A stretch of DNA of 64,000 nucleotides from Tissierellia bacterium. Lineage in GTDB: Bacteria > Bacillota > Clostridia > Tissierellales > Sedimentibacteraceae. The stretch covers positions 1 to 64,000 of the forward strand of contig JAQVWY010000004.1 of assembly GCA_028709465.1 (NCBI GenBank). The letters are read 5' to 3'. Each line of letters starts with the position of its first letter. Position 1 is the first letter of the stretch. Positions 20,813-57,064 of the stretch are shown one piece after another. Under the pieces are notes generated by a model that was not told the DNA's origin, did not search any database, and saw nothing but the letters and a program-made list of their open reading frames with translations. The translations under genes were made by a program, and so were the position numbers.

Positions 20813-20899
20813 TAAATAATATTAAATAAAAATGTTGCATTTATTAGGTATCTATAATATAATAAAAGAAATTAAACCCAACTAAATTAGTAGGAAATA

Positions 20900-21152
20900 C
20901 TATGAAAAAGGAAAGTAATATATATATATACGATTTAGAGAGAGTATCCCTAGGCTGAAAAGATACTTATTGGAAATATATATGAAGTGCCCTTTGGAGT
21001 ACAGTACCGAAATATAAGTAGGCTGCTGCGGATCTTATCCGTTATAATAATAAAGCATGTTAGTGCTTGAAAGAGGGCAAATTTATGCCAAAAAGAGTGG
21101 AACCGCGGATTATACTTCGTCTCTAATGTTTATTAGAGACGGAGTTTTTTTT
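20900..21152 (+). promoter_or_regulatory. T-box leader, Cys specifier TGC (20988-20990), upstream of cysE
   Basis: TGAAG-TGC-CC-TTTGGAG specifier context, GTGGAACCGCGG T-box, CGTCTCTAAT..ATTAGAGACG terminator with T run. Confidence 0.9.
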
Positions 21153-21285
21153 ATGACCTAACCCCATTTTTCAGAGTGTTTTTTCTGAAAATGGATGGTA
21201 GGTCAAACGCAACGATTATGATTTACCCAATTTATACGACCAGAGGGAGTAAATAAATTGGTGAACAGTTAATGACAAGGCAAAA
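21153..21285 (+). repeat. hairpin module (T-box-downstream repeat), degenerate single copy
   Basis: ATGACCTAACCCCATTTTTC...GAAAATGGATGGTAGGTCA and CCCAATTTAT...AATAAATTGGTGAA. Confidence 0.75.
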
Positions 21286-37038: not shown

Positions 37039-37104
37039 AAAAATCGGTTAAGACTATTGACAATTTAATTAAACTTTTATATTATGATATAAATAAATAT
37101 TAGC

Positions 37105-37327
37105 AATGAAAAAGAGGAGTAAGTATAAATACCTTTTAGAGAGTGAAATCCTTAAGGCTGTAAGATTTCATAGGTTAAGTTATGCTGAAGGTAGCTTTTG
37201 AGCTTTTAATCTGAAATATCAGTAAGATTAAACGGATTAACCGTTATAAATACAAGAGCCGTAATGGAAATTAGGTGGTACCGCGGGTTTTCTCGTCCTT
37301 ATATAGACAGAAAACCCGCTTTTTTGT
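37105..37327 (+). promoter_or_regulatory. T-box leader, Val specifier GTA (37191-37193), upstream of valS
   Basis: CTGAAG-GTA-GC-TTTTGAG specifier context, AGGTGGTACCGCGGG T-box, AAAACCCGCTTTTTT terminator. Confidence 0.95.
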
Positions 37328-37530
37328 ATGACCTAACCCCATTTTTTGCGACGACAGGAGCAGAAAAAATGGATGGTAGGTCAACCGCACCGAATTCCCA
37401 ATTTATGCGACGACAGGAGCGAATAAATTGGTGAATGAGCCTGCGAACCTAACAACAAAAAACAATTTTGACGAAGTAAAAATAATGGTATGTTTCACAC
37501 AATGGGGTTCCCATTAAAATAAGTATGACG
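37328..37530 (+). repeat. hairpin module after valS T-box: one full 172-bp unit plus remnant of a second
   Basis: CCCATTTTTTGCGACGACAGGAGCAGAAAAAATGG and CCCAATTTATGCGACGACAGGAGCGAATAAATTGG; next-unit start CCCATT at 37510 is 172 bp from the one at 37338. Confidence 0.8.
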
Positions 37531-44785: not shown

Positions 44786-45181
44786 AAGTTCCTCCTATTT
44801 TGTTAAAATATATTGTTTTAAAATTCAAAACATGAGTTGTTAATTTTCATGGTTTGAATTAACAATATTTAAATAGTATTGCAATTAAATAAGTTTTTTA
44901 TTAATTAAACATGAAAATTAAATACTCATTAATGAACGAAAGTATTATATATTACCTAATACGAAAAGTGCAATAGCTTTTTTATAAAAAAATATCGTAA
45001 TTTTATTTAAAATGCTTTATAAGTATATGTGTTTTCAATAATTGAGTTTGTTATCTTATTAAAGTTGACAAAATAAATACTCAAAATACGTACGATATTT
45101 ATATAATATATGGAATATTAACTAGCAAATATTTATTGACATTAAAACCTAGCCTGTGTATAATAAGTAAAAGTTTATAAA

Positions 45182-45465
45182 AAGCTATGAGAGAAATAAA
45201 AATATCAGCAATTAACTATAGAGAACCAATGGATGGTGTAAATTGGTGTTATTAGATATATAATGATCATTCTTGAGCTTCTAACTCGAAATTAAAGTAG
45301 ATTTGGACGTGTTCCTGCGTTATAAAGGATAGAGTTTAATAATTGTCATATTGACTTGAATGAGGCGATATAAAATATCGTGAATTAGGGTGGTACCACG
45401 AAGACCTTTCGTCCCTATATATATTATTTAATATTAATATATATAGGGTCGAGAGGTCTTTTTAA
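45182..45465 (+). promoter_or_regulatory. T-box leader, Ile specifier ATC (45266-45268), upstream of ilvD
   Basis: TAATG-ATC-AT-TCTTGAG context aligned to the valS leader; AGGGTGGTACCACGAAGACC T-box; long AAGACCT...AGGTCTTTTT terminator. Confidence 0.92.
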
Positions 45466-53619: not shown

Positions 53620-53746
53620 GACGGTAAGATCACGCAGTCTCATTAACCAATGTATTTACTCCTCTTGGTTGAATGCATTGGGAATTCGTTGCGAATGACC
53701 TATCGACATTTTTCAGAAAAAACATCAGAAAAATGGGGTTAGGGCA
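53620..53746 (-). repeat. hairpin module copy after the ilvBN operon terminator
   Basis: minus: CCCTAACCCCATTTTTC...GAAAAATGTCGATAGGTCATTCGCAACGAATTCCCAATGCATTC...GAGGAGTAAATACATTGGTTAATGAGACTGCG. Confidence 0.7.
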
Positions 53747-53770: not shown

Positions 53771-53802
53771 AAAAAGTAAGGCGGAATAGCGCCTTACTTT
53801 TT
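53771..53802. terminator. terminator of the ilvBN operon (minus)
   Basis: AAAAAGTAAGGCGGAATAGCGCCTTACTTTTT. Confidence 0.8.
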
Positions 53803-54072
53803 GCTAGTTTCATCATCAATTAATTCAAATTCAAGCTTATCAAAATCAATTTCATCAATAAAATCATCAGGATAAAAAACCATATATTTAAATTGAGAAA
53901 AATCCTCTTCATGTTTTTTTAATAGAATAGGAACACTTAAATCAAATTTTTGGCATGCTTCAGCTAAACATTTATTTCTTTTTTCTGTTAAATCAATATT
54001 TTCGTTATTTTTAATATTTATAGAAGCAATTATCTTGTTATTTTTTATTTTTTTGACCCAAATTCGATACAT
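53794..54072 (-). CDS. conserved-looking 92-aa protein of unknown function, cotranscribed with ilvN
   Basis: ORF starts 1 nt after the ilvN stop on the minus strand. Confidence 0.65.
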   Translation of the reverse strand: MYRIWVKKIKNNKIIASINIKNNENIDLTEKRNKCLAEACQKFDLSVPILLKKHEEDFSQFKYMVFYPDDFIDEIDFDKLEFELIDDETSKK

Positions 54073-54073
54073 A

Positions 54074-54553
54074 TTAGCCTCTCTCTAACGCGGTAGGACC
54101 AGTACGAGTCATTTCAACTATACCATATGGCTTTAGCAATTCAAGTATCGCATTGTTTTTTTCTTCAGTACCTGTAATAACAACTGTTAGGTTTTTAGTG
54201 TTTACATCAGCAATAGTTGATTTAAAAATTCCTACTATTTGTATGATTTCAGTCCTTTTTGATCCCACTGCATTTACTTTTATCATCATAAGTTCACGTT
54301 GCACTGATGTTTCTTCTGTTAAAGTAGTAATTTTAATTACATTTATTAGTTTATGAAGCTGTTTTGTAATTTGTTCAATTATATAACCGTCTCCTGTTAC
54401 GGCTACTGTAATTCGTGATAGCTTAGGATCTTGAGTTTCAGCAACATTTAAACTATCAATATTATATCCTCTTCTAGTAAAAAGGCCTGCAACCTTGCTT
54501 AAGGTACCAGAATAGTTTTCTACAAGGATTGATAAAATAAATTTTTTATTCAT
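54074..54553 (-). CDS. ilvN: acetolactate synthase small (regulatory) subunit
   Basis: ACT domain: ILVENYSGTLSKVAGLFTRRGYNIDSLNVAETQDPKLSRITVAVTGD. Confidence 0.95.
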   Translation of the reverse strand: MNKKFILSILVENYSGTLSKVAGLFTRRGYNIDSLNVAETQDPKLSRITVAVTGDGYIIEQITKQLHKLINVIKITTLTEETSVQRELMMIKVNAVGSKRTEIIQIVGIFKSTIADVNTKNLTVVITGTEEKNNAILELLKPYGIVEMTRTGPTALERG

Positions 54554-56195
54554 TTTTTTTACCTCCTAATCTAGGAACTGAAGGAATTTCTGGATCAACT
54601 ATACACTCTAGTATAAAAGGTTCATCGTCCTTAAGCATTTCATTTATTGCATTATCCATTTCATCTTCCTTTGAAATTTTCATTCCTTTAATGTTATAAG
54701 CTTCTGCAATTTTCATAAAATTAGGATTAAATCCTACGTCAGTTCCAAAATAAGACTTTTCACCATATGCATTTTTTTGAAGCTCTCTAACCATACCTAG
54801 TTTTCCGTTATTAAATATAATAAATTTAACTCCTACATTATGCTCTCTGGCTACTGCTAAATCACTCATAAGCATTTGAACACCACCATCTCCCATTGAT
54901 GATATAACAGTTTTATTTGGACATGCTATTTTAGCTCCGATTGATGATGGTAAACTGTATCCCATAGTACCTAGACCTCCAGAAGTTAAGAACAATTTAC
55001 TGCCGCTTACCATGAAACTGTGAGCAGCCCAAATTTGATTTAATCCTACATCGGCTACCCAAATTCCATCATCTCCCATTTGTTCGGAAATTTTACTAAT
55101 AAATAATTTAGGATTAAGTAATGAACTTGAAGCTAAAGATTTACTTAAATAATTGTTTCTATTTTCTTGAAGTTCATAAAGCCATTCATTATGGTCTAAA
55201 TCATAATCATATTCTAATAAATCATTTAATATTTCTTTAGCATCACCAACTATAGGTACTTTCGCTGGCATATTTTTTCCTATTTCAGCTGGGTCAATAT
55301 CAATATGAATAATATTTTGCACATTATTTTTGTTCATCATAGAAGTTGATCTGTCAGCGAATCTTGCCCCAATAACAATAATTAAATCTGAATCATTCAT
55401 AGCTCTGTTCGCATAATTGTAGCCATGAGAACCTATTAATCCTGCAAAATAAGGGCTTTTATTAGGAAACCCGTCAACTCCCATTAAAGAGCAAACTACT
55501 GGCAACTTTGATTTTTCAATAAATTTCTTTAATTCTTCTGTAGCATTACCATAGCGAATACCTCCACCTATACAAACAATTGGTCTTTTAGATTTATTAA
55601 TAAGCTCTACTGCTCGTTTAATTTGCCTCGGATTACCGCTTAATGTTGGCTTATACCCTCTAATATCAACCTTTTCAGGATATTTAAATTCTATTAATTC
55701 ATCTTGCACATCTTTTGGGATGTCGATTAATACAGGTCCTTTTCTTCCAGAAGATGCAATAAAAAATGCTTCCTTTATTATTCTAGGTAATTCTTTTGCA
55801 TCTTTTACAAGATAGCTATTTTTAGTAAAGGATTGGGTTGCGCCTATTATATCTGCCTCTTGAAACATATCCTTTCCAATGCAGTCAGAAAGAACTTGCC
55901 CTGTAATAGCAACAAGGGGGATCGAATCCATATATGCTGTTGCAATGCCTGTTATTAAATTCGTTGCCCCAGGACCAGAAGTTGCAATGCATACACCAAC
56001 TTCATCTAATGCGCGGCCATAACCGCTGGCCATGTGTGCTGCAGATTGTTCTTGTCTTACTAAAATATGTCTTATATCTGAATTTCTGAGAGCTTCGTAT
56101 AAAGGGAGGACGGCTCCTCCAGGATATCCAAATACTACTTTTACTTTTTCTGCTTCTAAACATTTTACTATTGCTTCAGCTGCTTTAATTTTCAT
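54546..56195 (-). CDS. ilvB: acetolactate synthase large subunit
   Basis: VFGYPGGAVLPLYEAL, ATSGPGATNLITGIATAYMDSIPLVAITGQV, GDGGVQM.. Confidence 0.96.
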   Translation of the reverse strand: MKIKAAEAIVKCLEAEKVKVVFGYPGGAVLPLYEALRNSDIRHILVRQEQSAAHMASGYGRALDEVGVCIATSGPGATNLITGIATAYMDSIPLVAITGQVLSDCIGKDMFQEADIIGATQSFTKNSYLVKDAKELPRIIKEAFFIASSGRKGPVLIDIPKDVQDELIEFKYPEKVDIRGYKPTLSGNPRQIKRAVELINKSKRPIVCIGGGIRYGNATEELKKFIEKSKLPVVCSLMGVDGFPNKSPYFAGLIGSHGYNYANRAMNDSDLIIVIGARFADRSTSMMNKNNVQNIIHIDIDPAEIGKNMPAKVPIVGDAKEILNDLLEYDYDLDHNEWLYELQENRNNYLSKSLASSSLLNPKLFISKISEQMGDDGIWVADVGLNQIWAAHSFMVSGSKLFLTSGGLGTMGYSLPSSIGAKIACPNKTVISSMGDGGVQMLMSDLAVAREHNVGVKFIIFNNGKLGMVRELQKNAYGEKSYFGTDVGFNPNFMKIAEAYNIKGMKISKEDEMDNAINEMLKDDEPFILECIVDPEIPSVPRLGGKKNE

Positions 56196-56224
56196 ACAAA
56201 AACCTCTCTTTCTTGTTATTTACA

Positions 56225-56736
56225 AAATTTCTAATATCTACTTCGTCAAAAATATTTTTTGTTGATAGGAGCGCAGGCGCATTCACCAATTTATTTGCTC
56301 CTTATGTCGCATAAATTGGGAATTTGTTGTGGTTGACCTACCATCCATTTTTTCTGCTCCTTACGTCGCAAAAAATTGGATTTCGTTTCGTGAGATTTAC
56401 CGTTATTATTACTCCGTCAAAAATATTTTTTGTTGATAGGTACGCAGTCTCCGTTCACCATTTTTTCTGCTCCTTATGTCGCAAAAAATGGGAACTCGTT
56501 GCGGTTGACCTACCATCCATTTTTTCTGCTCCTTACGTCGCAAAAAATGGGATTTCGTTTCGTGAGATTTACCGTTATTATTACTCCGTCAAAAATATTT
56601 TTTGTTGATAGGTACGCAGTCTCCGTTCACCATTTTTTTTGCTCCTTATGTCGCAAAAAATGGGAACTCGTTGCGGTTGACCTACCATCCATTTTTTCTG
56701 CTCCTTACGTCGCAAAAAATGGGGTTAGGTCATACA
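56225..56736 (-). repeat. tandem array of three about 171-172 bp hairpin-module units between ilvBN T-box and ilvB
   Basis: unit starts (CGTCAAAAATATTTTTTGTTGATAGG on +) at 56244, 56415, 56587; units 2 and 3 nearly identical. Confidence 0.93.
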
Positions 56737-56960
56737 AAAAAAGCGAGTTTTTTCATCACAAAGGACGAGAAACCCGCGGTACCACCTTAATTCCATATTG
56801 GCTCTTAATAAATAACGGTATATCCGTTTAACTCTACTGCTACTTCAAGTTAAAAGCTCCAAAGCTACCTTCAATATAGCTTAACCTAGGAAATCTTACA
56901 GCCTATGGATTTCATTCTCTAGAAGGTTATATTATATCTACTCTCTTTTTCATTGCTTAA
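56737..56960 (-). promoter_or_regulatory. T-box leader, Val specifier GTA (minus; + coordinates 56866-56868), upstream of ilvBN
   Basis: minus: TTGAAG-GTA-GC-TTTGGAGC specifier context and AAGGTGGTACCGCGGGTTT T-box. Confidence 0.93.
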
Positions 56961-57064
56961 TATATAATTATCATCTATAATAATTAAATATTTTATAAAT
57001 GTCAACAAAAATATTTAAAAAATAAAAAACAAGATTATCTGAACCAAATTTCAATCTTTTTAAT

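Follow-up and report, generated by a model that had tools for sequence, protein, structure and literature searches.

The ilvBN leader carries three tandem, hairpin-rich units behind an intact T-box, which raises the question of whether the array is a regulatory part of that leader, as the earlier note had proposed, or a repeat of wider distribution that has multiplied at this site. The evidence from the window (the whole stretch of 64,000 nucleotides that was analysed) and from related genomes makes it likely that a hairpin-forming, non-coding repeat, dispersed through intergenic DNA, has expanded in tandem at this locus; the repeat in turn is most probably a small mobile element of DNA whose movement is brought about in trans.

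All components of the leader lie on the minus strand. A promoter-like site (TTGACA-17-TATTAT, 56977-57005), which agrees with the consensus at 11 of 12 positions and is a consensus match only, precedes the intact T-box leader (RF00230, 56758-56962, 125.8 bits), whose putative terminator hairpin and T-run (GCGGGTTT..AAACTCGCTTTTTTT, 56736-56777) were placed by T-box anatomy. The array begins immediately behind this T-run, and hence after the read-through decision point, as had been claimed. It is followed by ilvB (54546-56195), coding for the 549-aa large subunit of acetolactate synthase, and, downstream, by ilvN (54074-54553); the identities of ilvB and its neighbours are read from the sequence.

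The array occupies positions 56733-56219, between the T-box terminator and ilvB, and the repeat search gives the 171-172 nt spacing of its three units. The T-box-proximal unit U1 (56562-56733) is composed of modules A, B and C and contains a match at 56615-56732 (112.8 bits) to R1, a covariance model of the two-hairpin core A+B. The middle unit U2 (56390-56561) matches R1 at 56443-56560 (86.9 bits), and the diverged, ilvB-proximal unit U3 (56219-56389) at 56272-56388 (79.5 bits). The earlier note had thus described a genuine array of hairpins A and B, yet the full unit has a third, 3′ module, C. Its near-identical, recently homogenised tandem pair exists as well, but consists of the two T-box-proximal units: in alignments U1 and U2 are 95.9% identical over 172 nt, with differences mostly in the initial few bases, whereas U3 shares 81-84% with them.

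In each unit, hairpin A has outer arms GACCTAACC/GGTAGGTC and inner arms CCATTTTTT/AAAAAATGG; in U1 (56679-56731) it reads GACCTAACC-[CCATTTTTT..AAAAAATGG]-AT-GGTAGGTC, with a conserved outer stem according to sequence and pair counts, and in U2 the outer 5′ arm is replaced relative to U1. Hairpin B, delineated in U1 (56615-56675) by the same two means as CGCA-ACGA-GTTC-[CCATTTTTTGC-GA-C-(loop)-G-GA-GC..]-GAAC-GGAGAC-TGCG, has CGCA..TGCG as its outer stem; further in come an internal loop containing CGA/GAG, then the stem CCA..TGG, and finally a tandem G.A motif capped by a GNNA loop. The GCGACnnAAGGAGC loop is present in hairpins A and B of the units, while hairpin B of U3 is built from CCAATTTAT/ATAAATTGG instead, as previously reported. 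Module C (56562-56614 in U1, starting with TACCTATCAACAAAAAATATTTTTGACGG...) is less conserved than the two hairpins and, on alignment, is common to many other leader-type copies. The array region folds far more stably than shuffled sequences (z -6.4). A pattern scan of the array revealed no terminator-like or promoter-like pattern, and the possibility of an extra attenuator or internal promoter within it was dropped. The claim that no known riboswitch class accounts for the units agrees with the search of Rfam, where no family exceeded the gathering threshold; sub-threshold matches were all that spoke for a known RNA class.

The genome itself (G000) is a 166-contig draft, 97% complete with 4.4% contamination, and several of its contigs end near units (C7, C18, C19, C38, C44, C88 and C106), so the number of units in the array may be a product of assembly. 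The end of C44 overlaps the start of C7 (L021/L022), and unit numbers more generally may be limited by the assembly.

The covariance search that had been recommended for the array was run with R1 and recovered units across the genome and the order; the loop motif likewise occurs repeatedly in the genome. The core unit of about 115 nt comprises hairpin A, whose outer arms TGACCTAACC/GGTAGGTCA are conserved, followed by hairpin B with its conserved CGA/GAG motifs. At E<=0.01 there are 74 matches in G000 and 31 in its relative G013, counts which are approximate, since scoring covered the 150 best candidates in each genome and some weak matches are opposite-strand echoes of one copy; about 50-60 places in G000 carry an R1 unit. 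Matches occur in 57 of 150 sampled genomes and in 22 of 68 genera of the order, and exact matches include Sedimentibacter hydroxybenzoicus, S. saalensis and S. acidaminivorans, which identifies the genus as Sedimentibacter. Two genus members, G002 and G015, are entirely without R1 matches, and the window unit has no match in the phage database. At L046:1502-1676 the loop of hairpin A contains an inserted extra palindrome, a further sign of nested repeats.

The address of these units is highly specific. In G000, 11 of 28 T-boxes are followed directly behind the terminator by a unit on the same strand, where about 0.2 would be expected from intergenic chance, assuming 15% intergenic DNA. Two further examples lie on the plus strand of the window, where R1 matches at 37329-37445 and, in diverged form, at 21154-21276 stand directly behind the T-boxes at 37097-37303 and 20893-21127, respectively; a fourth T-box (45178-45419), before an ilvD-like gene, is the sole one in the window with no unit behind it. 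Units also follow lysine, cobalamin, glycine and SAM riboswitches and an L10 leader in G000, and others stand behind gene-end terminators or stop codons. The earlier note had set random genome-wide positions against any role in leaders; copies do lie genome-wide, yet the link to leaders holds. In G013, by comparison, only 1 of 23 T-boxes has a unit, and rRNA and tRNA spacers are occupied instead. The rRNA operons fetched from the closed genomes G013 and G021 contain units about 17 nt upstream of 16S, in its leader, and in the 16S-23S and 23S-5S spacers, and in the tRNA-tRNA gaps of these genomes units begin 3-4 nt behind the tRNA. Relatives also carry them in gaps between ribosomal-protein genes and in prophage structural operons. 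In prophages of another family, the unit starts exactly behind the tape-measure stop codon or lies between the portal and prohead-protease genes (prophage gene names being read from sequence, and that of the tail gene taken from a phage record), and its positions in the portal/protease and tape-measure/tail gaps are fixed across several genera. In prophages, copies are also found where the 5′ part of a gene (that of the prohead protease or of the major tail protein) has a truncated duplicate: the unit then separates the duplicate from the intact gene, an arrangement shared across genera (L182, L183, L184, L185, L187, L188, L206, L213 and L217). Of 71 distinct contexts, 65 have an A immediately before the unit. 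Other arrays in the genome are found in the rplW-rplB gap and before the promoter upstream of an Rrf2-type gene.

Such placement raises the alternative that the unit is a functional intercistronic element of high-output operons, whose hairpins, as RNA or as DNA palindrome, serve between RNA units as sites of processing, stabilisation or antitermination. All 18 terminator-class copies lie on the same strand as the downstream gene, and this, together with the units in the rRNA operons of G013 and G021, the fixed prophage positions and the conserved CGA/GAG and GNNA motifs, is in its favour. Placement on the same strand, and the retention of units by different genera at orthologous positions in prophages, could indeed mean function, and, like the conservation of the outer arms of hairpin A across families, they count against the mobile-repeat reading. 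A second class of copies, however, departs from the pattern. Here the R1 unit lies within another repeat (TGTCATTCTGAAGGCGTAGCC...), following the hairpin of that repeat, and in all 17 cases it is oriented antisense to the gene on its right, as against none of 18 in the terminator class. A general rule of same-strand placement thus fails on the class nested in the TGTCATTCTGAA repeat; replication strand was likewise rejected as the determinant of orientation, since terminator-class units occur on both strands of the 64 kb window, following the gene. The nested class is represented in the window by an R1 match at 53633-53746 (minus strand), inside the second repeat and after the ORF at 53794-54072. 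The second repeat family, TGTCATTCTGAAGGCGTAGCCTGAAGAATCTC, is located at the 3′ ends of genes and forms a hairpin whose loop is GNA; this hairpin is often followed immediately by a nested R1 unit (L008:50-260, L083, L084, L085, L086 and L088).

Comparison among relatives shows that units come, go and expand locally, as is evident from filled and empty orthologous sites and from the unit-free genomes G002 and G015. In the rplW-rplB gap there are two units in G000 and G014, one in G006 and G009, and a rearranged set in G001, while the gap is empty in G013, G011, G008, G007, G003 and G015. Three relatives (G010, G003 and G014) keep the T-box, the terminator and ilvB and lack the array; on this sequence comparison, the ilvBN array is a lineage-specific, dispensable insertion that subsequently multiplied in tandem.

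The pairing within the stems bears on whether the fold is maintained as RNA. Compensatory changes across copies, whose absence the earlier note had named as counting against its proposal, are indeed numerous: double Watson-Crick changes affect 16 of 40 pairs in 35 cells, which are not independent, the copies being related, and 0 of 500 shuffles matched this. The double changes alone would suggest an RNA. A selected RNA fold, however, should keep G-U pairs, while a DNA palindrome treats G-U and A-C alike, so that counting the two separates a palindrome from a selected fold. Among 107 distinct copies there are 57 G-U pairs and 50 A-C mismatches, as opposed to 45 and 2 in tRNAs of the same loci (Fisher p 3e-8), and the leader/terminator class alone gives 12 and 15 (p 8e-7). 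No placement class exhibits an excess of G-U over A-C, and there is thus no sign of selection on the transcript fold; the pairing signature fits a DNA palindrome.

The intercistronic function therefore lacks the G-U preference in every class, and it is further weakened by the antisense orientation of the nested class, by the missing terminator or promoter pattern in the array, and by the absence of units from orthologous leaders, some rplW-rplB gaps and two entire genus members; it retains a modest chance of being correct. A combined form, in which a conserved intercistronic element of Tissierellales chromosomes and phages separates or processes RNA units in rRNA, tRNA, ribosomal-protein and phage late genes and between T-box leader and mRNA, spreading as a mobile element and being kept because it works, is improbable. 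The proposal of the earlier note, that the array regulates ilvBN with copy number tuning expression, draws on the roughly 500 nt of structured RNA that follow the decision point, the near identity of U1 and U2 and the enrichment of units in leaders. It is very improbable and could not be upheld, given the same units at unrelated places (rRNA and tRNA operons, prophages and gene ends), the empty orthologous leaders of three relatives, and pairing that bears no RNA signature.

Mobility of the unit is probable, as is movement in trans, although the usual marks of transposition were sought with little success. The unit (5′ TGMCCTAACC, 3′ GAGACTGCG) has no terminal inverted repeats. At least 3 nt are shared between the flanks of 10 of 51 copies, against 6.9 expected (513 of 5000 shuffles, ~0.10), and target-site duplications that looked convincing by eye (GTAT..GTAT, AGAT..AGAT) were dropped as not beyond chance. 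RAYT-like Y1 transposase genes are encoded in most genus members, G000 included, and the paired hairpins, compensatory changes and tandem clusters are REPIN-like, but a REP/REPIN-type element moved by these transposases is scarcely credible, since the examined RAYT flanks contain no convincing unit (best R1 match E 0.44) and carry their own GGGGACGG-type repeats, and since unit-free G002 has a RAYT while unit-bearing G016 has none. At the RAYT loci (L153-L170) these repeats flank the gene, and sometimes two RAYT genes stand in tandem (L153).

The mobile-repeat reading suggests the following course of events. The core unit would insert with a single orientation, immediately downstream of the point where a transcribed feature ends, whether this is marked by a tRNA, an rRNA, a stop codon or the T-run of a terminator. 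At ilvBN, a single copy may have landed 2-3 nt behind the T-box terminator T-run, after which slippage or unequal exchange would have raised the number of units to three. The decision made by the T-box would be unchanged, and read-through transcripts would gain about 500 nt of extra hairpins. The effect on ilvBN is probably near-neutral. A precedent is the BOX element between the two T boxes of the pneumococcal trp leader, where the 5′ UTR reaches nearly 1 kb and both T boxes apparently still work (PMC3049150).

The units form a large family of structured repeats that has apparently not been described before. Their location is unusual, being behind the 3′ features of transcripts, in one orientation, in both chromosomes and prophages; no account of such a repeat in Sedimentibacter was found in the literature. 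The locus also illustrates that compensatory changes in tandem hairpins can be misleading when the hairpins lie in a riboswitch leader.

Among known systems, the T-box (RF00230) is an upstream neighbour on the same transcript; the array lies outside it, and units occur elsewhere with no T-box. Group IIC introns are placed in an orientation-specific manner directly behind intrinsic terminators. The R1 unit shares this type of site, and the Rfam group II model gives it a sub-threshold match (E 2), yet the unit has about 115 nt and no ORF, and occurs also behind stop codons and tRNAs. As in REPINs and BIMEs, its palindromes are paired, extragenic and found in tandem clusters of near-identical copies, with compensatory changes on both arms, the last two being features described for REPINs (PMC3116915); it differs in having two direct hairpins rather than inverted REPs, in its larger size (115-172 nt) and in the lack of a unit beside the examined RAYT genes. 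Pneumococcal BOX elements (boxA-boxB(n)-boxC) are likewise small modular hairpin repeats with a varying number of modules (PMC3049150), and both are intergenic, have tandem modules and are transcribed as UTR extensions. There are differences as well: BOX has terminal inverted repeats, target duplications and enrichment between convergent genes (PMC3049150), while the R1 unit has no inverted ends and no significant duplication and lies same-strand behind terminators, tRNAs, rRNAs and stop codons. On the best reading, the units are small, structured and probably mobile repeats of intergenic DNA that constitute a new family, comparable to pneumococcal BOX and to REPINs.
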